This document shows, piece by piece, positions 1,367 to 17,914 of a stretch of 20,965 bases of DNA. The position numbers were made by a program, and so were the translations under genes. The stretch spans positions 1-20,965 of IMG/VR virus record IMGVR_UViG_3300042945_001649; one strand, given 5' to 3'. Under the pieces are notes generated by a model. The model was given only the letters and a program-made list of their open reading frames with translations, was not told the DNA's origin and ran no database searches. Source of the stretch: a virus. How positions within the stretch are numbered: position 1 is the first letter of the stretch; the number at the start of each line of letters is the position of its first letter.

Positions 1367-1889
1367 AGAAGATTTAGTAAAGCACCTTGATCAAGTAAAT
1401 CAAGTTGTTGAAGAGTATCTAAAAGGTAATGACCCAACAGTAATTTCAAAACAACTTTCCATACCAAGACAAAGAGTTGTAACCTTAATCAATGAGTGGA
1501 AGGTCATGGCTTCTGCTAATGATGCCATCCGTGCTCGTGCCAAAGAAGCACTCGCTGCAGCAGATACACACTATAGCAAGTTGGTCTCTAGAACGTATGA
1601 AGTAATTGATGAGGCATCTATGACTAATAACCTTAGTGCAAAGACTGCAGCAATTAAACTTGTAATGGACATTGAGTCTAAAAGAATTGATATGCTTCAA
1701 AAGGCTGGTCTTCTTGAGAACAAAGAACTTGCAGAAGAGATGATGGAAATTGAAAAACGTCAAGAGGTTTTGATGGCTATACTTAAAGACATTGCAGCAG
1801 AATATCCGCAGGTTCGTGATGACATTATGCGTAGACTATCTGCCGTATCTAAAAAAGATGAGGTAATAACTGTTGTCCACGGAGTTTAG
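1356..1889 (+). CDS. Terminase small subunit-like protein
   Basis: A 177-residue, mostly helical protein directly before and overlapping the large terminase gene by 17 bases, the classic place of the small terminase that recognises phage DNA for packaging. Residues 18-48 (YLKGNDPTVISKQLSIPRQR) look like a helix-turn-helix DNA-binding segment. Residues 60-150 are long amphipathic helices with many Glu, Lys and Met residues, fitting an oligomerising central domain. A GAGGG ribosome site lies just before the ATG at 1356. The assignment rests on the DNA-binding pattern, size and position, since small terminases are poorly conserved in sequence. Confidence 0.8.
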   Translation: MSTEEDLVKHLDQVNQVVEEYLKGNDPTVISKQLSIPRQRVVTLINEWKVMASANDAIRARAKEALAAADTHYSKLVSRTYEVIDEASMTNNLSAKTAAIKLVMDIESKRIDMLQKAGLLENKELAEEMMEIEKRQEVLMAILKDIAAEYPQVRDDIMRRLSAVSKKDEVITVVHGV

Positions 1890-3654
1890 CGATTTCTTTG
1901 AGGCACTGAAAGACAACCATTTTGCGGAAACCCCAGTAGATGCAAAGACGTTTGTTGAGGGTGAGCAATATCTCAACCAGCCAGGTCTATCAGATATACA
2001 ATATGATATTGTTGAGGCGATGAGTCAGATATATAGAAAAGAAGACTTGATAGACCTAATGGGTGCAGAAGAGGGTGCTAGGTATTATGAAAAATATACA
2101 AAGAATGAAGTAATTCTGCAACTCGGCAAGGGATCTGGAAAAGATTTTACATCAACCGTAGCATGCTCATATATCGTATATAAACTTCTATGCCTTAAAG
2201 AGCCAGCAAGATATTTTGGCAAGCCTGCAGGAGATGCTATTGACCTTATCAATGTGGCTATTAACGCACAACAGGCAAAGAATGTTTTCTTTAAAGGTTT
2301 TAAAACTAAGATTGAAAACTCTCCATGGTTTGCTGGAAAATTTTATGCAAAGGCTGACTCTATTGAGTTTGATAAATCAATCACTGTTTATTCTGGTCAC
2401 TCAGAAAGAGAATCTCACGAAGGTTTGAACCTTATACTCGCTGTTCTTGATGAAATTTCTGGCTTTGCATCTGAGATTGGTAGTGGTAATGATCAGGGAA
2501 AGACTGCAGAAAACATATATAAGGCTTTCCGTGCCTCTGTAGACTCACGATTCCCTGACCTTGGAAAGGTGGCTCTACTATCTTTCCCAAGATATCCTGG
2601 AGACTTTATATCAGAAAGATACGATGCAGTCATTGCTGAAAAAGAGGCTGTAGAAAAAGTTCATAAGTTTGTTATTAATCCACTATTGCCAGATGATGCA
2701 GTAGACAATACATTCGAGATTTCGTGGGATGAAGATCACATTATCTCTTATAAGTATCCAGGAGTGTTCGCATTAAAACGTCCAACATGGGAAGTAAATC
2801 CTACAAGAAAGATTGATGATTTTAAAATTGCTTTTATGACTGATCTAGGTGATGCCATGCAAAGATTTGCCTGCGTCCCAACATTTGCATCAGACGCTTT
2901 TTTTAAGCAGATAGAAAAAGTAAGAAATTGTATGGTATCAAGAAACCCAATTGACACATTTAAAAGGTTTGATGAAAACTTTAAGCCAGACCCAAATAAA
3001 ATATACTATGTTCACGCAGATCTTGCACAAAAACACGATAAGTGTGCAGTTGCAATTGCCCATGTTGATAAGTGGGTTAATGTTCAAGTAATTAAAGATT
3101 ACGAACAGGTTGCACCAATTGTTGTTGTCGATGCCGTTGCATGGTGGGAACCAAAAATTGAAGGACCTGTTAACCTATCTGAGGTTAAGCAATGGATTCA
3201 AAACCTTCGTAGACTTGGGTTTAATATTGGAATGGTTTCCTTTGACCGCTGGCAGTCCTTTGATATTCAGAACGAGTTGAAGCAGGTTGGAATGAGAACT
3301 GATACTGTTTCTGTTGCTAAAAAACATTATGAAGATATGGCAATGTTAGTATATGAAGAAAGACTTCTTATGCCAGCCATCGAACTTCTATTCGACGAAC
3401 TAACACAGTTAAAGATTATGAAAAATGACAGAGTTGACCATCCACGCAAAAAGTCAAAGGACTTGGCTGATGCGGTGTGTGGAGCAATTTTTGGGGCAAT
3501 ATCACATACCCCAAGAGACCTTAACCTTGAGGTTGATATTCACACTATTAGTGATCGACCAAAGCAAGTTGACAGGCCTGAAGACAATGTGATACAATAT
3601 AAATCTATGCCAAACGATGTAAAAGATTATTTGGATAGATTCAATCTACTATAA
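1873..3654 (+). CDS. terL: Terminase large subunit
   Basis: A 593-residue packaging motor with ATPase and nuclease parts. The Walker A motif is GKGSGKD at residues 85-91, with lysine 90, and Walker B is LILAVLDE at 187-194, with D193 and E194. The C-terminal RNase H-like nuclease shows its three acidic positions: D383 in HADLAQKHD, D458 in SFDRWQS and D533 in DLADAV. Length is typical for phage large terminases. The start is a TTG at 1873 inside the small terminase gene, giving overlapping and probably coupled translation. Unlike many phages, no portal gene follows; exported proteins come next. The end of the gene holds a promoter for the next unit. Confidence 0.95.
   Translation: MSTEFSDFFEALKDNHFAETPVDAKTFVEGEQYLNQPGLSDIQYDIVEAMSQIYRKEDLIDLMGAEEGARYYEKYTKNEVILQLGKGSGKDFTSTVACSYIVYKLLCLKEPARYFGKPAGDAIDLINVAINAQQAKNVFFKGFKTKIENSPWFAGKFYAKADSIEFDKSITVYSGHSERESHEGLNLILAVLDEISGFASEIGSGNDQGKTAENIYKAFRASVDSRFPDLGKVALLSFPRYPGDFISERYDAVIAEKEAVEKVHKFVINPLLPDDAVDNTFEISWDEDHIISYKYPGVFALKRPTWEVNPTRKIDDFKIAFMTDLGDAMQRFACVPTFASDAFFKQIEKVRNCMVSRNPIDTFKRFDENFKPDPNKIYYVHADLAQKHDKCAVAIAHVDKWVNVQVIKDYEQVAPIVVVDAVAWWEPKIEGPVNLSEVKQWIQNLRRLGFNIGMVSFDRWQSFDIQNELKQVGMRTDTVSVAKKHYEDMAMLVYEERLLMPAIELLFDELTQLKIMKNDRVDHPRKKSKDLADAVCGAIFGAISHTPRDLNLEVDIHTISDRPKQVDRPEDNVIQYKSMPNDVKDYLDRFNLL
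3569..3598 (+). promoter_or_regulatory. Promoter for the exported protein at 3670
   Basis: TTGACA at 3569-3574 and TACAAT at 3593-3598 are separated by 18 bases, with TGTGA just before the -10. The predicted start point near 3605 lies inside the last 50 bases of the terminase gene, so the exported-protein gene would have its own strong promoter and a leader of about 65 bases. Confidence 0.6.
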
Positions 3655-3669
3655 AGAAAAGGAAAATAA

Positions 3670-4770
3670 ATGAATTCATTTAAGAAAATCTCAATTGCTA
3701 CTGCTGCAGCCCTAGCAATCGTTGGACTTTCTGTAGCACCATCTTCGGCAGCACCTCTTGCCGTTACGGTTGCAACAGTAACTAACGCTACTACAGCAGC
3801 AGCACCAGCAACAGTTGCGGTGCCAGCAGCAAACCAGATTACATCTGGAACATCTGTAGCACTAGCAGCAACAGCAGATACAGGAACAGTCGTTTCTTTT
3901 ACTGCTTCATCAACCGTTAAGTTGGTTACAGCACTACACACATCAAGTGCACCAGTTTCAGTTGCTTCAGGAGTATCAACTCTTTCAGTAACATCTGCTG
4001 GAGCAGCAATTACAGTATATGCTTATACAACAACAACAGCAGTTGGATCAGTTACCATTGTAAATGGCTCATACTCAACTATCGTATACATTAAGGGAAC
4101 ACCAGGAGCAGCATCAAATGTTGCAGTTTCAGTCCCTTCAGCAACAGCAGTTGGAACAATTCCAACAATCACAGTTTCAGCAACAGATGTTTTTGGAAAC
4201 GCAATCGCAACAGGTGAGACAATTACTGCTACAGTAATCGGATCAACATTTGCTGATGGTTCATCTACAAAGAATCTAGTTACCACAACAACAGCAGAGA
4301 ACGCAGCAGACTCAACTCTAGTAGTTGGATCAAAGACTGCAGCACTTGCTACAGCAGTAGTAGGAACAATTCAGGTTGTTGTTACTGGTGTTGCATCAGC
4401 AGCAACAGTTACTGGTCTTCCAGCACCAGTTAAGGCAGCAACAGCATCATTTACTGTTTCAGACCTTAATGGAACAATTGCTAAGTTGACTGCAGACCTT
4501 GCAGCAGAAAAGGCTGGTCGTGCACTTGATGCTCAGGCAGCAGCAAATGCTCTTGCAGCAGAACGTGCTGGTCGTGCAGCAGATAAGGCAGCAGCAGACA
4601 AGGCGCTTGCAGATGCAATTGCTAAGTCAGTAACAGATTCAGCAACTGCTAAGGCAGCAGCAGATGTTGCTCTAAAGGCAGCAGCAGCAACTTACAAGGC
4701 AGAGTATAACGCTCTTGCTAAGAAGTGGAATGCAAAGAATCCAAAGGCTAAGGTTGCTCTAAAGAAGTAA
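3670..4770 (+). CDS. Exported Ala/Thr/Val-rich protein with C-terminal coiled coil
   Basis: A 366-residue protein with a Sec signal peptide: basic start (MNSFKK), hydrophobic core over residues 8-22 and a likely cut after SSA near residue 28. Residues 30-260 are rich in Ala, Thr, Val and Ser with repeated strand-like stretches, suggesting beta-sandwich surface domains. Residues 265-345 switch to Ala/Lys/Asp-rich helix with repeated AAE-AGRA units, and the tail is basic (KNPKAKVALKK). No catalytic motif is seen. It has its own promoter, a GGA-type ribosome site and a strong terminator, so it may be made in large amounts. A host-surface or virion-surface role is inference. The family is not recognised. 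Confidence 0.8.
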   Translation: MNSFKKISIATAAALAIVGLSVAPSSAAPLAVTVATVTNATTAAAPATVAVPAANQITSGTSVALAATADTGTVVSFTASSTVKLVTALHTSSAPVSVASGVSTLSVTSAGAAITVYAYTTTTAVGSVTIVNGSYSTIVYIKGTPGAASNVAVSVPSATAVGTIPTITVSATDVFGNAIATGETITATVIGSTFADGSSTKNLVTTTTAENAADSTLVVGSKTAALATAVVGTIQVVVTGVASAATVTGLPAPVKAATASFTVSDLNGTIAKLTADLAAEKAGRALDAQAAANALAAERAGRAADKAAADKALADAIAKSVTDSATAKAAADVALKAAAATYKAEYNALAKKWNAKNPKAKVALKK

Positions 4771-4786
4771 CTTAACCAAACATTAA

Positions 4787-4816
4787 AGGGGCTATCAATC
4801 TGGTAGCCTCTTTTTT
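4787..4816 (+). terminator. Intrinsic terminator
   Basis: An 11-base stem (AGGGGCTATCA with TGGTAGCCTCT, two G-U pairs) closes a 3-base loop and ends in a run of T at 4811-4816. It ends the transcript of the exported protein, just before the promoter of the PA14 gene. Confidence 0.85.
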
Positions 4817-4827
4817 GTGCAATAAAA

Positions 4828-4836
4828 TGGTATAAT
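4828..4836 (+). promoter_or_regulatory. Extended -10 promoter of the PA14 gene
   Basis: TGGTATAAT is a perfect extended -10 element placed 12 bases after the T-run of the terminator. No good -35 is visible, as is usual for extended -10 promoters. The expected start point is about 4843. Confidence 0.65.
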
Positions 4837-4843
4837 TATCCTA

Positions 4844-4858
4844 ACAGACATAGTCTGT
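4844..4858 (+). promoter_or_regulatory. Small hairpin at the predicted mRNA 5' end
   Basis: ACAGAC and GTCTGT form a perfect 6-base stem around ATA, starting at or one base after the predicted transcription start. It could protect the mRNA 5' end or mark a protein site on DNA. Which one is not shown by the sequence. Confidence 0.4.
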
Positions 4859-4874
4859 CCAAGGGGGAAGAGGT

Positions 4875-7124
4875 ATTAAAAGATTACTACGCATATTTTT
4901 AGTGGTATCACTTGCTCTATTTCCCCTTCTTTTAGGCATTGAGAAGGCTCACGCAGCAGATGGCTTGACTGCCCAAGTATATAGTGTCAATGGTCAGAAT
5001 AATGCTCCGTATATACCACAAGGAGCCTCTCCAGTAAGAACAGTAAATGTCCCAAATGTAAACTTTCAGTGGGGATCTGGGTCAGTTCTTGGAGGACCAT
5101 CAGAGGATGTTATAGTAAGATTTACTGGATCTATACTTAGTAATACAACTCAAAATATATCATTTTTAGCAACAGCAGACGACGGAACAAGGCTCTATCT
5201 TGATGGAGTATTGATAACTGATGACTGGTTTGATAAGGGTGGCGGAGGAACCACCAGCGCCCCAATTTCCTTTACAGCAGGAGTGCCAAAGACAATAGAA
5301 TTAATGTATTATGAAAATGGTGGGGGAGCCAATGTATTCCTGTATTGGGATCAATCTGGATCTATGGACATTATTCCAGCATCAGCATTTACCTCACAGG
5401 CAGCACCAGTAATAAAAACAATAGGTGCTCCAAGAAATCTTACAGTTGTAGATGGTTCTACTGCCACCGTCCTTACATGGGAAGCGCCTAACACTGGTAA
5501 CACTCAGCCAGAAAGATATGCTATTTCTTTTAGCGCAGATGGTGGGGGATGGGGAATAGCAACAGGAAATGTTGGAGATGCTAATGCTCTCAATACAACC
5601 ATAACAATTAATCACTCAGTCCTAGAGCAGTTAAAGCCAAGTGGCACAACATGGACATTCAGCATAAGGTCTGATAACGACACAAACAGTCTATACTCTG
5701 AATCATCTAACCAAGTAACGATTAAAATTGGTAAGACTCAAGCAGAAAAGGATGCTGAGGCTGCTGCTATATTGGCAGCACAACAAGAATCAGATAGACA
5801 GGCAGCAGCAAATACTGCAGTGTCTAATTATGAGACACAAACAGTAAACACATTAGAGCAGGTAGCAATTGCAGAAGCATTAAGATTATTAGCAGATTCA
5901 GCAACATCGATTGTTATCAATGAAAGTGTAAAGTCATCACTGCAGTCAAGAATAGATTCAAAAACAGCAACAGTTTTATCAGCAAAATCATCATTAACTC
6001 AAGCAAAACTTGAGGCTGAGGCAGCAGCATTGTTAGCAGCCCAACAGGAAGCAGCGAGGCTTGAAGCAGAAGCAGAAGCAGCAAGACAGGCTGCAATAGC
6101 AGCAGAGGCTGCTAGAGTTGAAGCAGAAAGACAGGCAGCACTTGCAGAAGCAGCAAAAGTTAAAGCAGAGCAAGATCGCTTGGCTGCTATCGAAGCAGCA
6201 AGAATTCAGGCAGAAATAAATGCCAAGGCAGAGGCAGATAGAATTGCTGCAGAACTTGCTGCTAAGAAGGCTGAAGAAGAAAGAATTGCAGCCGAAATTG
6301 CAAAGGCTAAGGCCGAAGAAGAGGCAAGACTTGCTGAGGAAGCCAGACTAAAGGCTGAAGCAGAAGCAAAAGCAGCAGAAGAAGCAAGATTAAAAGCAGA
6401 AGCAGAAGCAAAAGCCAAGGCTGAAGAAGAGGCTCGTTTAGAAGCGGAGAGAATTGCTGCTGAGGAAGCCAAAGCGAAGGCAGAGGCAGAAGCCAAAGAA
6501 AAGGCTGAGCAAGATGCAAAGAAGTTAGCAGAGCAAAAGGCTGCTGAGGAAGCAAAAGCAAAAGCGGAAGCAGAAAAACTTGCAGCAGAAGAGTCTGCTA
6601 AAAAAGCAGAAGAAGAAAGACTAGCAAAGATTGCTGAAGAAGCAAAGGCTGGAAAAGAATTATCTAAAGAAGAAGTTGCAGCAGTTGTAGAGTCATTAGT
6701 TGCAGATTTAAAACCAGGAGAATCACTATCAGCAGCACAAGTGCAGGCATCTGGAATTTCATATTCACAACTTCCACCAGAAACACCAGTCGAGGTTCGC
6801 ACAGATGAAAACGGAAATGCCCTTGTAATAACTGCAGAAGTTGCTGCACAAGTTGAATTAGTTCAAGATCCAGGAGCATTATTAGAGGCAGCATTAACTG
6901 ATCCAGGAGCAGCATTAGCAGCACTTGGAAGTATTGGTGCAGATATGACTGAAGAAGAAAGAGAAGAAGCAACCGATATGGTTGTTGCAACAGTTGTAGC
7001 AGCAGGTGCAGCAATTAATGCAGCAGCAGTTGCAACAGGAGGATCAACAGGCGGAGGAAGTTCTGGTGGGGGTGGCGCTTCAGGTTCCAACTCACCAGGT
7101 TCAAGAGGAGGTAGAAGATGGTAA
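4875..7124 (+). CDS. Exported PA14-FN3-coiled-coil surface protein with probable ATT start
   Basis: A 749-residue protein. Residues 1-27 form a signal peptide with a basic start (KRLLR) and cut site AHA. Residues 30-178 are a PA14 domain, with its hallmark DDGTRLYLDG and a WD-containing last strand; PA14 domains often bind carbohydrate. Residues about 182-285 fit a fibronectin type III domain (APRNLTVVDG, LTWEAP). Residues about 287-610 are a very long Ala/Glu/Lys coiled coil of TolA style. An Ala-rich hydrophobic stretch near 705-725 and a Gly/Ser tail ending in RRW follow. The start is taken as ATT 4875, with AAGGGGG 7 bases upstream. GTG 4902 would lose the basic signal segment and has no ribosome site. 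A fibre or adhesin-like role is inferred. Confidence 0.85.
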   Translation: MKRLLRIFLVVSLALFPLLLGIEKAHAADGLTAQVYSVNGQNNAPYIPQGASPVRTVNVPNVNFQWGSGSVLGGPSEDVIVRFTGSILSNTTQNISFLATADDGTRLYLDGVLITDDWFDKGGGGTTSAPISFTAGVPKTIELMYYENGGGANVFLYWDQSGSMDIIPASAFTSQAAPVIKTIGAPRNLTVVDGSTATVLTWEAPNTGNTQPERYAISFSADGGGWGIATGNVGDANALNTTITINHSVLEQLKPSGTTWTFSIRSDNDTNSLYSESSNQVTIKIGKTQAEKDAEAAAILAAQQESDRQAAANTAVSNYETQTVNTLEQVAIAEALRLLADSATSIVINESVKSSLQSRIDSKTATVLSAKSSLTQAKLEAEAAALLAAQQEAARLEAEAEAARQAAIAAEAARVEAERQAALAEAAKVKAEQDRLAAIEAARIQAEINAKAEADRIAAELAAKKAEEERIAAEIAKAKAEEEARLAEEARLKAEAEAKAAEEARLKAEAEAKAKAEEEARLEAERIAAEEAKAKAEAEAKEKAEQDAKKLAEQKAAEEAKAKAEAEKLAAEESAKKAEEERLAKIAEEAKAGKELSKEEVAAVVESLVADLKPGESLSAAQVQASGISYSQLPPETPVEVRTDENGNALVITAEVAAQVELVQDPGALLEAALTDPGAALAALGSIGADMTEEEREEATDMVVATVVAAGAAINAAAVATGGSTGGGSSGGGGASGSNSPGSRGGRRW
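6310..6460 (+). repeat. 14-residue repeats in the coiled coil
   Basis: Within the PA14 gene a 42-base unit is repeated imperfectly, coding EEARLKAEAEAKA-type segments. An identical 16-base piece (AAGCAGAAGCAAAAGC) recurs at 6358-6373 and 6400-6415, exactly 42 bases apart. Fourteen residues equal two heptads, so unit gain or loss would keep the coiled coil in register. Confidence 0.7.
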
Positions 7125-7300
7125 GAATAGTAAAAAATATAATCAAAGACCTAATTGACCAAGCATGGACCCTTCTTGGTATGTTTATTGCTTGGGTAGT
7201 TTTGGACGGTAGTGCTAAGACTATTGTTGGTTATGGAATCATAGCAACAACAGCCCTATGGATACTGACTAGTCCGATTAGAAATAGAGAGGAGGACTAA
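7118..7300 (+). CDS. Small two-pass membrane protein
   Basis: A 60-residue protein with an amphipathic start (MVRIVKNIIKDLIDQA), two hydrophobic segments near residues 17-30 and 35-52, and a charged tail (RNREED). It overlaps the PA14 gene by 7 bases. Its ribosome site GGAGGT lies in the codons for the GGRRW end of the PA14 protein, which ties the two genes together. It may be part of a lysis or membrane-anchor set with the next gene. No family is recognised. Confidence 0.7.
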   Translation: MVRIVKNIIKDLIDQAWTLLGMFIAWVVLDGSAKTIVGYGIIATTALWILTSPIRNREED

Positions 7301-7301
7301 A

Positions 7302-7586
7302 ATGGCAACTAAGAAAGTAGAAGTGGCTCCTAAAAAGGAACACCCACAAAAGGCTCTCCCAAATGTTTTGATGCGTATCGTAGCAGTATTCGCCGCTTCT
7401 GGTCTATCAGTGCTTGGCGCTGGAGCAGTAGTAGGAATTGACACAATTCAGGCAGTTATGCTTGCAGGACTATTAGGCGTAGCAACAGTCGTTGAAAGGC
7501 TGGCAAGGGCTTTTTTGGACGATGGAAAACTTACAATCGCAGAAATAAATGATGCATTTAAGACTGTAGATAAAAAGGCTAATTAG
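7302..7586 (+). CDS. Holin-like membrane protein
   Basis: A 94-residue protein with a Lys-rich start, two hydrophobic segments near residues 24-46 and 50-68 joined by a short GID turn, and an acidic-helical tail (DDGKLTIAEINDAF). Size and layout match small phage holins, which form the membrane lesions that release endolysin. A GGAGG site sits just before the ATG, and the gene follows the 60-residue membrane protein after one base. The endolysin gene is 3.3 kb downstream. A holin call is plausible but rests on topology. A second candidate lies at 17642. Confidence 0.55.
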   Translation: MATKKVEVAPKKEHPQKALPNVLMRIVAVFAASGLSVLGAGAVVGIDTIQAVMLAGLLGVATVVERLARAFLDDGKLTIAEINDAFKTVDKKAN

Positions 7587-8407: not shown

Positions 8408-8424
8408 AAATGAAAAGGAATAAA

Positions 8425-9207
8425 ATGAAGAAAATCGTAGCACTAGTATCAGTATTGTTCTCAGTTGTTGTGCCAGTTCAGTCACAGGCAGCAGTTGGGG
8501 AAAGAATTGTAATCGTTGACAATGCATTTGACCTATCACAAATTAGCGGTAGCGTTGAATTTGTTTGCGTTTCCTCAGACAGATGTGTTAATAAGACAAA
8601 GTCTACTCTAGATCATGGAACTCAAATGGCTCTTGTTGCTCGTCAACAAAATCCAACAGCAACATTAGTTTTGATCCAGAGTGCACCAGTAAGTAAAAGT
8701 GGAACATCCTCAGAGGTTAATCTGATTGGTTTGATTTCTGCACTTGATTTTGTTAACAGCAATTCATCCAATGTTTCTGCTGTTTCTTTTTCAAGATTTG
8801 TTAACAATACCACTGCAAAGTTATCAGGACAATGTTTCCCACCAGCATCAGCGCCATATACTCCACAGACAGGATTCGAAAGAGTTAAGTCTTCTGTTGT
8901 TTCTTTAAACTCAAAGGGAATTCAGGTATATGCTGCTGCAGGAAACTCAGTATCAAAGACAATTGATTTTCCAGCATGCATTTCAGAGGTAGTTTCTGTT
9001 GGATCTTATATTTATGGAAAGACATATAAGAATGGCGAAGTAGATATTCTTACATCTCTTTCAACACCAGATAAGACTTCAACTATTAAGAACCTTATTA
9101 AGGGTGTTTCTATTCAGTTTTCAACTTCAGTAGCAACTGCTGCTGTTGCTGCAAACTCAAGCACAATTGTTCCATCTTCAAAGGTGGCAATGGTTCTCTC
9201 TAACTAA
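8425..9207 (+). CDS. Exported subtilase-like (S8) protein
   Basis: A 260-residue protein with a signal peptide (MKKIVALVSV start, likely cut after QAA near residue 23) and subtilisin-type blocks in order: D32 in IVIVDNAFD, H64 in DHGTQMA, N174 in AAAGNS (oxyanion hole) and S235 in STSVATA, where GTSxA is usual. All four active-site positions are thus present, though the serine motif has Ser for Gly. Length is just under a minimal subtilase. ATG 8425 is chosen because AAAGGA lies 5 bases upstream and the signal peptide then starts cleanly. It may process surface proteins or degrade host ones; activity is not certain. tRNA-Asn follows directly. Confidence 0.75.
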   Translation: MKKIVALVSVLFSVVVPVQSQAAVGERIVIVDNAFDLSQISGSVEFVCVSSDRCVNKTKSTLDHGTQMALVARQQNPTATLVLIQSAPVSKSGTSSEVNLIGLISALDFVNSNSSNVSAVSFSRFVNNTTAKLSGQCFPPASAPYTPQTGFERVKSSVVSLNSKGIQVYAAAGNSVSKTIDFPACISEVVSVGSYIYGKTYKNGEVDILTSLSTPDKTSTIKNLIKGVSIQFSTSVATAAVAANSSTIVPSSKVAMVLSN

Positions 9208-9307: not shown

Positions 9308-9391
9308 ATGAGCATAATTAAAAAGATTAAATGGTATATCTGGCAAAAAAAATATAAAAAGAAGATGAAAAATAAAAGGTATATCTACTAG
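9308..9391 (+). CDS. 27-residue basic leader peptide
   Basis: A tiny open frame coding a very basic, aromatic peptide (starts MSIIKKIKWYIW, ends NKRYIY). It starts 6 bases after a promoter -10 and lacks a ribosome site. Its TAG stop overlaps the GTG start of the carbamoyltransferase in TAGTG, a coupling junction. It could be a real small protein that binds membrane or nucleic acid, or a translated leader that opens the next gene. The exact promoter spacing and stop-start overlap are the evidence that it is translated. Confidence 0.55.
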   Translation: MSIIKKIKWYIWQKKYKKKMKNKRYIY

Positions 9392-10815
9392 TGATCATTC
9401 TTGGCATAAATGAAACAAGTCACGATGCTTCAGTTTCTTTAATTGAAAATGGAGACATCCTTTTTTCAGGGCATGCCGAAAGATATAGCAAGAAAAAAAA
9501 TGACTGGTATATCAATGATAGTTTAATAAAAGACGCTTTGCAGTATGGCAGACCAGATCACATTGCCTACTATGAAAAACCCCTTCTAAAAGCCTCTAGA
9601 CTACTTTTAAAGGGTGGAGCAGGGGACTGGAAGCCACGCTTTGATTTACCAGATATCCCAAGAAAATCATTTAGTCATCACCACTCTCACGCAGCAGCGG
9701 GATACTATACGAGCCAATTTAACGATGCAGTGGTTGTAGTTCTAGATGCAATGGGAGAATACAATACATCTACAGTGTGGGTAGGTGAAGGTGATAATCT
9801 TAAACTTAAATTTAAGCAAAACTATCCAGTCAGTTTTGGACTATTTTATTCTGCATTTACTGACTTAATTGGACTTATGCCAAACCAAGAAGAATACATT
9901 ATGATGGGGATGGCAGCCTATGGAGACTGGAAAAGATACTATAAGGAAGTAAATGAATACTTTCCAAACTACCATACTCAAAAATATAATTTTCATAAAG
10001 GTATTGACGATTGGTGCATGCCAATAACAGAGCAAGATGCATTTGACATTGCAGCAGCAGTTCAGGTTGTATATACGACCCGACTTATGGAATTTATGAA
10101 TATGGCAAAAAGAATTACAGGAAAGAAGAATCTTGTTTTTATGGGTGGCTGTGCCCTCAACTCATCTGCTAATACATCTTTATGGAAACTATTTGATATG
10201 ATCTGGATTATGCCAAACCCAGGAGATGCTGGTAGTTCATTAGGTGCTGCAGCAGCATTATATGGAAAGCATTTAAACTGGAAAGGACCATACCTTGGAT
10301 ATAATATTGAGGGTAAATATCCTATTCAGGAAATTGTTGACGGTATACTAAAAGACGGAATCGTAGCAGTAGCATCAGGAAGAGCGGAGTATGGACCAAG
10401 AGCACTAGGTAACAGAAGTATCCTTGCTGATCCAAGAGATCCAAACATTAAAGACAAAGTTAATCTAATTAAACAAAGAGAACTCTTTAGACCTTTTGCT
10501 CCTGTAGTTATGGCAGAGCATGCATCTAAATGGTTTGATATGGATTTTGAAAGCCCATATATGCAGTATACGGTCAAGTGTTTAAAACCAGAAAAGATAC
10601 CCTCTGTAGTTCATAAAGATGGCACCTCTAGAGTGCAAACAGTTACAAGAGAGCAGCACCCAGGCCTGTATAGGGTAATAAATAAGTTTTATCTTCAGAC
10701 TGGAGTCCCAGTTCTTTTAAATACTAGTCTTAATATAAAGGGGCAACCGCTTTTAAATGATGAAAATGAAATAATTAAATGGGAAAAAGAGTATGACTTC
10801 AAAATATGTAGGTAA
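9391..10815 (+). CDS. NodU/TobZ-family carbamoyltransferase
   Basis: A 474-residue enzyme of the family that moves a carbamoyl group from carbamoyl phosphate through carbamoyl-adenylate to a hydroxyl group. The N-terminal Kae1-like part shows GINETSHDAS at residues 5-14, the metal-binding HHHSHA at 96-101 and VLDAMGE at 117-123. GGCALN is at 252-257. The C-terminal domain shows GRAEYGPRALG at 330-340, FRPFAP at 366-371 and LNTSLN at 443-448. It is shorter than the 550-600 residues of NodU, with a slim C-terminus. The start is GTG, coupled to the small peptide. A substrate is not visible: DNA 5-hydroxymethylpyrimidine or a glycan are both possible. Confidence 0.85.
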   Translation: MIILGINETSHDASVSLIENGDILFSGHAERYSKKKNDWYINDSLIKDALQYGRPDHIAYYEKPLLKASRLLLKGGAGDWKPRFDLPDIPRKSFSHHHSHAAAGYYTSQFNDAVVVVLDAMGEYNTSTVWVGEGDNLKLKFKQNYPVSFGLFYSAFTDLIGLMPNQEEYIMMGMAAYGDWKRYYKEVNEYFPNYHTQKYNFHKGIDDWCMPITEQDAFDIAAAVQVVYTTRLMEFMNMAKRITGKKNLVFMGGCALNSSANTSLWKLFDMIWIMPNPGDAGSSLGAAAALYGKHLNWKGPYLGYNIEGKYPIQEIVDGILKDGIVAVASGRAEYGPRALGNRSILADPRDPNIKDKVNLIKQRELFRPFAPVVMAEHASKWFDMDFESPYMQYTVKCLKPEKIPSVVHKDGTSRVQTVTREQHPGLYRVINKFYLQTGVPVLLNTSLNIKGQPLLNDENEIIKWEKEYDFKICR

Positions 10816-17641: not shown

Positions 17642-17914
17642 ATGAATGAAAAAATGAAGGCTATGCTTGCATCATACGGACGATCAGTCCTTGGCGCAGC
17701 GCTTGCACTATATATGTCTGGGGTAACAGACCCTAAGACTCTTGCATACTCATTGGTTGCTGCATTGGCACCAGTTGCACTGAGAGCAGTTAATCCAAAC
17801 GATACTGCTTTTGGAAAGATGCCATCTGTTGAAGAGGTAGATTCTGCAGTTAAGAAGGCTACCGTCAAGAAGGCACCTGCTAAGAAGGCTGCCCCTAAGA
17901 AGGCTGCAAAGTAG
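17642..17914 (+). CDS. Holin-like membrane protein with Lys/Ala tail
   Basis: A 90-residue protein with two short hydrophobic segments near residues 10-24 and 30-47, a proline/asparagine turn (VNPNDTAFGK), and a tail made of KKA and KKAAP repeats. It resembles small phage holin-like proteins with cationic tails; the tail could also bind DNA or wall polymers. It has a perfect GGAGG site 6 bases before its ATG, and is followed by a terminator-like stem, marking the end of the long operon. It and the protein at 7302 are both holin candidates. Confidence 0.6.
   Translation: MNEKMKAMLASYGRSVLGAALALYMSGVTDPKTLAYSLVAALAPVALRAVNPNDTAFGKMPSVEEVDSAVKKATVKKAPAKKAAPKKAAK

Follow-up and report, generated by a model that had tools for sequence, protein, structure and literature searches.

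Predicted exported proteins encoded next to the terminase genes of a freshwater actinophage lineage, one with an ATT start codon

Proteins by which a phage modifies the envelope of its host are of a known kind, as with Llp of phage T5 and Ltp of phage TP-J34, which are superinfection-exclusion lipoproteins. Spanins consist either of an inner-membrane protein with an N-terminal transmembrane domain together with an outer-membrane lipoprotein, or of a single unimolecular spanin lipoprotein. The two proteins considered here, P1 and P2, are encoded by the two open reading frames (ORFs) found directly 3' of the large terminase gene terL in a 20,965-base virus fragment of IMG/VR (record IMGVR_UViG_3300042945_001649; this whole stretch is herein called the window). 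Like Llp and Ltp, they are phage gene products with predicted export into the infected cell's envelope, but they lack a lipobox, are much larger and multidomain with immunoglobulin-like (Ig-like) or lectin domains, and were unrelated to Llp and Ltp by the tests made. As a putative envelope-spanning helical phage protein encoded near holin genes in an actinophage, P2 also resembles the spanins and the corynephage protein LysZ, which is reported as spanin-like and described as having 177 amino acids and one transmembrane domain (cited in PMC13056207). It differs from LysZ by its signal peptide, lectin head and C-terminal anchor, and the combination of a signal peptide with a C-terminal hydrophobic helix, again lacking a lipobox, is not that of a spanin. 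The PA14 domain of P2, finally, is like those of MpPA14, from a Marinomonas primoryensis adhesin, and of RsgI3 and other RsgI-type anti-sigma factors, as found by Pfam, PDB and Foldseek matches; what sets P2 apart from these is that the PA14 domain, with predicted sugar binding, sits on a phage-encoded stalk with a hydrophobic helix at its C-terminus and a small membrane protein as partner. The literature searched contained no paper on the P1/P2 family and no direct precedent for PA14 proteins of freshwater phages, and the new elements would be a lectin stalk that is anchored and whose heads can be exchanged, together with its non-ATG start.

Two predicted exported proteins directly after terL

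An earlier note on this DNA, made from its letters only, had claimed that two proteins with Sec signal peptides, the first of them Ala/Thr-rich, follow the large terminase and seem meant for the host envelope. The ORF positions and the Ala/Thr-rich, exported-type sequence of P1 bear this out (Table 1). A positive n-region, a hydrophobic core and an AxA-type site were found in both proteins, and a heuristic based on these three features was passed by 106/106 P1-slot genes of relatives but by none of the controls (0/128 TerL, 0/107 TerS, 0/72 HslV and 0/48 CHAP). Because this heuristic is unspecific when used alone, with 35% of shuffled P1 N-termini passing, weight was instead placed on conservation: the K/R n-region, core and AxA-type site are retained in relatives although the mature bodies differ. 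Both signal peptides lack Cys, P1 being Cys-free throughout, and thus have no lipobox of the Llp/Ltp type. Good support for the predicted export of P1 and P2 to the host envelope comes from the conserved AxA-type signal peptides, from extracellular-type folds and, for P2, from a hydrophobic C-terminal segment, a basic tail and the gene for a membrane partner. It could alternatively be argued that P1 or P2 is a virion component, in decoration or tail, having a hydrophobic N-terminus that is not a signal peptide. Ig-like and lectin domains do occur in phage virions, and a phage tail protein is one of the many Ig-like matches that Foldseek gives for P1, but the retained signal-peptide features with exchanged mature bodies, and the own monocistronic unit of P1 away from head and tail genes, make this explanation very improbable.

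The earlier note had also expected a portal gene after terL, which is wrong for this lineage. TerL was 55% identical to TerL of Streptomyces phages of the Stanwilliamsviridae, with Stanimal as the phage named, and the window contains a WhiB gene, which makes an actinobacterial host most likely. In Stanimal, terL (69.1 kb) lies about 43 kb downstream of the portal gene (24.6 kb), and in 11/11 long relatives having both genes the two were separated by 38–75 kb, the portals of these relatives being 48–57% identical. Homologous TerL and portal proteins, with the portal distant from terL, relate the lineage to Stanwilliamsviridae and place the portal gene outside the 21 kb fragment. P1 and P2 as a portal replacement could thus be ruled out, since the portals of this lineage sit elsewhere. 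As judged by these comparisons, the block after terL is not a misplaced structural block, and P1 and P2 are predicted exported proteins of a freshwater actinophage lineage related to Stanwilliamsviridae, with at least 396 relatives of P1 and at least 294 of P2 in IMG/VR.

That each gene has its own promoter, and the first gene a terminator, had been proposed before and was conserved in relatives. An extended −10 element lay upstream of 92/92 P1-slot genes and a strict extended −10 pattern upstream of 74/74 P2 relatives, with TerL as a control giving 17/118 (loose pattern) and 2/118 (strict pattern). A terminator followed 89/97 P1-slot genes versus 0–13 of 60 control genes; that of P1 was detected by folding and missed by a simple terminator scan. 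With this conserved promoter and terminator, P1 is predicted to be its own transcription unit. Strict extended −10 boxes of the TGNTATAAT type occurred eight times on the + strand of the window and not once on the − strand, most of them directly upstream of a gene, and they likely form the promoter set of the phage. The Lys codons of P1 were AAG in 21/22 cases, as compared to 23/49 in TerL (p=5e-5), which shows a codon usage with high-expression bias, and P1 is probably an abundant secreted protein. The controlled high expression proposed for both proteins hence suits P1 more than P2, whose ATT start probably restrains translation.

The predicted structure of P1 had two Ig-like domains and a 90-residue C-terminal helix (mean pLDDT 77.6). 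The Ig-like domain at residues 27–146 resembled an S-layer domain of SbsB (Z 8.9, rmsd 2.2), with invasin-type domains also close, and these matches identify the model as Ig-like, a fold to which the Foldseek list allows alternatives. P1 had no Pfam match, which includes SLH and other known wall-anchoring domains, and Big_1 remained below the Pfam cut-off in other P1-slot proteins. No match to P1 was found among named phages, nor any sequence match in the PDB. The bodies encoded in the P1 slot fell into five or more families in which no mutual similarity was detected (86, 14, 4, 1 and 1 members), all behind related signal peptides. In an alternative gene arrangement P1 is placed 3' of the protease gene, and P1 and P2 are thus separable. 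One P1-slot protein with a different body (L221:1935-3623) had the C-terminal end ITCYKGKLVKKVTGVAPKCPVGYSTKK, which in our view recalls the C-termini of actinobacterial surface proteins. A host origin of P1 was rejected, as a profile scan of genome contigs found no cellular relative and gave as its single match a 110 kb contig bearing phage TerL and portal. This contig, CAINGU010000031.1 (L153), carries an actinophage-like TerL and portal within a metagenome-assembled genome labelled as a cyanobacterium, and is probably misbinned.

Domains of P2 and its link to TM60

P2 had been described beforehand as a PA14-FN3-coiled-coil protein, and this agreed with what we found: the PA14 domain (PF07691) scored 31.6 bits in Pfam against a cut-off of 24, the fn3 domain 22.6 bits, just below its cut-off of 25, and the coiled coil was present. 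The best sequence match of the PA14 domain in the PDB was 6qe7 (1.7e-23), and the best Foldseek matches were 6qe7 and sugar-bound MpPA14, the proteins matched being RsgI3 and MpPA14. Residues D102 and D103 together with YYENGGGA were invariant in 25/25 relatives; the Asp-Asp pair and the ENGGG loop we take to be the sugar-binding residues of PA14 lectins. Among 25 representatives of P2 ectodomain clusters, PA14 was found in 12 and a SUEL lectin in two, and the hydrophobic C-terminal segment with basic tail was seen in all three P2 clades. Comparison of these relatives indicates exchange of the lectin heads (PA14, SUEL) and of the P1 bodies, with signal peptides and anchors retained. The 320-residue helix of P2, if continuous, would be about 48 nm long and would cross a thin wall.

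TM60 followed P2 in 97/109 testable loci, usually overlapping the P2 stop codon, HOL94 followed TM60 in 78/90 testable loci, and the three genes stayed together in both gene arrangements. Two named phages had partial matches to P2. The hypothetical protein WJZ48438.1 of Actinomycetia phage DSL-LC01 (OQ999401) is like P2 in having a signal peptide, a C-terminal hydrophobic helix and a TM60-like end, with the fn3 domains of the two proteins being 47% identical (E 2.5e-22), but it has other N-terminal domains, no PA14 found, and its TM60 part is fused instead of separate. This TM60-like end was detected by hhalign (87.5%, score 33.4), where 200 shuffles gave a maximal score of 15.0 and six other small window proteins, including holin-like and membrane proteins, a maximum of 11.8. 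The hhalign probability was 52.8% for TM60 against the whole DSL-LC01 protein, and BLASTP of TM60 against the DSL-LC01 tail gave no match, so that profile comparison alone detects the likeness. This naturally occurring fusion suggests a single working complex of P2 and TM60.

The exported proteins could also be thought to act in trans after release, binding to virions, debris or neighbouring cells, with aggregation or virion carriage to new hosts or surfaces as the outcome. P1, with its Ig-like domains, is probably abundant and has no membrane anchor, and bacterial adhesins use PA14 domains to bind sugars on other cells (MpPA14 entries); P2, however, appears anchored to the producing cell and no link was found between P1 and virions, and we consider this possibility improbable.

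The ATT start codon of P2

The signal peptide of P2, (M)KRLLRIFLVVSLALFPLLLGIEKAHA-ADG, exists only from ATT 4875, at which P2 starts. A start at GTG 4902 was rejected, as it removes the positive n-region, does not pass the heuristic and would leave the Shine-Dalgarno sequence at a long distance upstream. In 74 distinct contexts the start codon of P2 relatives was ATT in 44, ATA in 9, ATC in 3, TTG in 8, CTG in 4, ATG in 2, GTG in 1 and another codon in 3, and in a wider set of 122 distinct relatives, reached via TM60, it was ATT in 55, ATA in 16, ATC in 3, TTG in 28, TTA in 7, CTG in 6, ATG in 4 and another in 3; ATT, ATA and ATC (ATH) thus made up 74 of the 122, as counts of related sequences and not of independent events. 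With an identical procedure, ATG was found for 82/82 P1, 32/33 TM60, 32/33 HOL94 and 68/71 HslV genes. A sequencing error behind the ATT was rejected, since there were 54 distinct ATH-start relatives, 52 of them without an upstream in-frame ATG, GTG or TTG; in 13 of the 54, the next 60 codons contained none of these three. Because the starts are spread over ATT, ATA, ATC, CTG and TTG, this pattern points to avoidance of ATG by P2 relatives and not to one inherited codon. Weak start codons are used elsewhere in the lineage, with terL starting at TTG here and in 73/86 relatives.

Non-canonical starts that are repressed by IF3 are known for infC, with ATT in E. coli and ATC in Streptomyces, and for Streptomyces sigR, where a GTC start sets the ratio to the co-transcribed and translationally coupled rsrA (PMC5472188). 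P2 is like infC and sigR in having a strong Shine-Dalgarno sequence together with a near-cognate start kept across relatives, and the P2-TM60 layout resembles that of sigR coupled with an overlapping downstream gene; unlike these, P2 is a gene for a putative phage surface protein. No direct precedent for AUU-start phage genes, or for comparable start-codon control in phages, was found in the literature searched. It is conceivable, although rather unlikely, that the exchangeable lectin stalk (P2 with TM60) of widespread freshwater actinophages is gated by a selected AUU/AUA start, which would make its synthesis depend on IF3 or the state of translation in the dying host. Gene callers limited to ATG, GTG and TTG trim or lose the signal peptide of the P2 family, and the export signal would thereby be missed in hundreds of records.

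Surface remodelling or lysis, and neighbouring genes

We tentatively favor, at somewhat less than even probability, that P1 and P2 remodel the surface of the infected cell, with P2-TM60 as a lectin stalk and P1 as a coat, thereby altering adsorption. This proposal builds on comparisons of signal peptides, folds, promoters, terminator, start codon, anchor and TM60 linkage, from which we infer surface display, glycan binding, exclusion and timing. Both proteins would be exported by the host Sec system and neither would be part of the virion. P2 would be anchored in the cell membrane through its C-terminal helix and through the overlapping partner TM60, its coiled coil crossing the thin actinobacterial wall to display a sugar-binding head (PA14, or SUEL in some relatives), and its ATT start may keep it low or late despite the strong promoter and Shine-Dalgarno sequence. 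P1, having a strong promoter and a terminator, would be secreted abundantly and may coat the wall or the surroundings via its helical basic C-terminus. Attachment to the infected cell would then be altered, most likely so that further phages are kept from adsorbing (superinfection exclusion, receptor masking) and fewer progeny are lost to cells already infected. If so, phages of freshwater actinobacteria remake the surface of their hosts with lectins and Ig-like coats that serve this purpose, and superinfection and adhesion between planktonic cells become testable at the gene level.

Several points weigh against surface remodelling. The signal peptides were called by the heuristic and not by SignalP, the C-terminal segment of P2 is Ala/Gly-rich in this clade and thereby a soft anchor, and the AlphaFold model of P2 was weak (mean pLDDT 65.9, pTM 0.27), because of which only its domain order was used. 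The gene for the holin-like HOL94 3' of TM60, furthermore, also fits a role in lysis. Lysis is the main rival: P2 and TM60 would then serve in lysis as a spanin-like device across the wall, and would break glycan or surface layers of the actinobacterial envelope together with the holin-like protein and the CHAP endolysin. The linkage of P2, TM60 and HOL94 in both arrangements with CHAP nearby, the spanin-like long coiled coil between membrane and wall, the precedent of LysZ, reported as spanin-like (cited in PMC13056207), and a weak start codon, which would fit a lysis protein, all agree with this. On the other hand, these hosts are expected to lack an outer membrane, lysis proteins do not usually have lectin and fn3 heads, P1 stands apart with its high expression, the topology of P2 differs from that of spanins, and the holin label of HOL94 is weak (phrog_443, holin, 0.0028), its stronger match being labelled nuclease (phrog_26427, 3.4e-25). 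We regard a lysis role as unlikely, yet as worth keeping in mind next to surface remodelling.

Table 1. Features at the P1/P2 locus, with positions as counted in the window.
Feature	Position	Strand	Description
terS	1356-1889
terL	1873-3654
P1 promoter	3569..3598	+	TTGACA-N18-TACAAT, TGA before −10; inside terL 3' end; 11/12 match
P1	3670..4770	+	366 aa; signal peptide 1-27, Ig-like ~28-146 and 148-265, helix 266-356, basic tail
P1 intrinsic terminator	4786..4812	+	12-pair stem, −15.3 kcal/mol, T tail
P2 extended −10 promoter	4828..4836	+	TGGTATAAT
P2 Shine-Dalgarno	4862..4868	+	AGGGGGA, ~7 nt before ATT; equal spacing in relatives
P2	4875..7124	+	749 aa from ATT start; signal peptide 1-27
P2 PA14	~5043-5369	+	Pfam PF07691
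P2 fn3	~5427-5705	+
P2 coiled coil	~5739-6704	+
P2 C-terminal hydrophobic helix	~6951-7040	+	followed by GS-rich basic tail
TM60	7118..7300	+	60 aa membrane protein, two hydrophobic helices; start overlaps P2 stop
HOL94	7302..7586	+	holin-like small membrane protein
Third exported protein	8410..9207	+	has the motif (D, HG, GN, S) of a subtilisin-like protease
Extended −10 boxes	3590, 4828, 7624, 9293, 10818, 12523, 17603, 19341	+	strict pattern

The genes after terL are, in order, P1, P2, TM60, HOL94, an HslV-like hydrolase and the exported protease-like protein, with the CHAP endolysin further on. The protease-like protein had no Pfam match; its D36, H68-G69, G177-N178 and S239 were invariant in 46 aligned relatives, as were three Cys residues. 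Between tRNA-Asn and the endolysin lies a carbamoyltransferase of NodU/CmcH type with both Pfam domains (9391-10815), and a second small holin-like membrane protein, distinct from HOL94 and having a Lys/Ala-rich tail, is encoded at 17642-17914.

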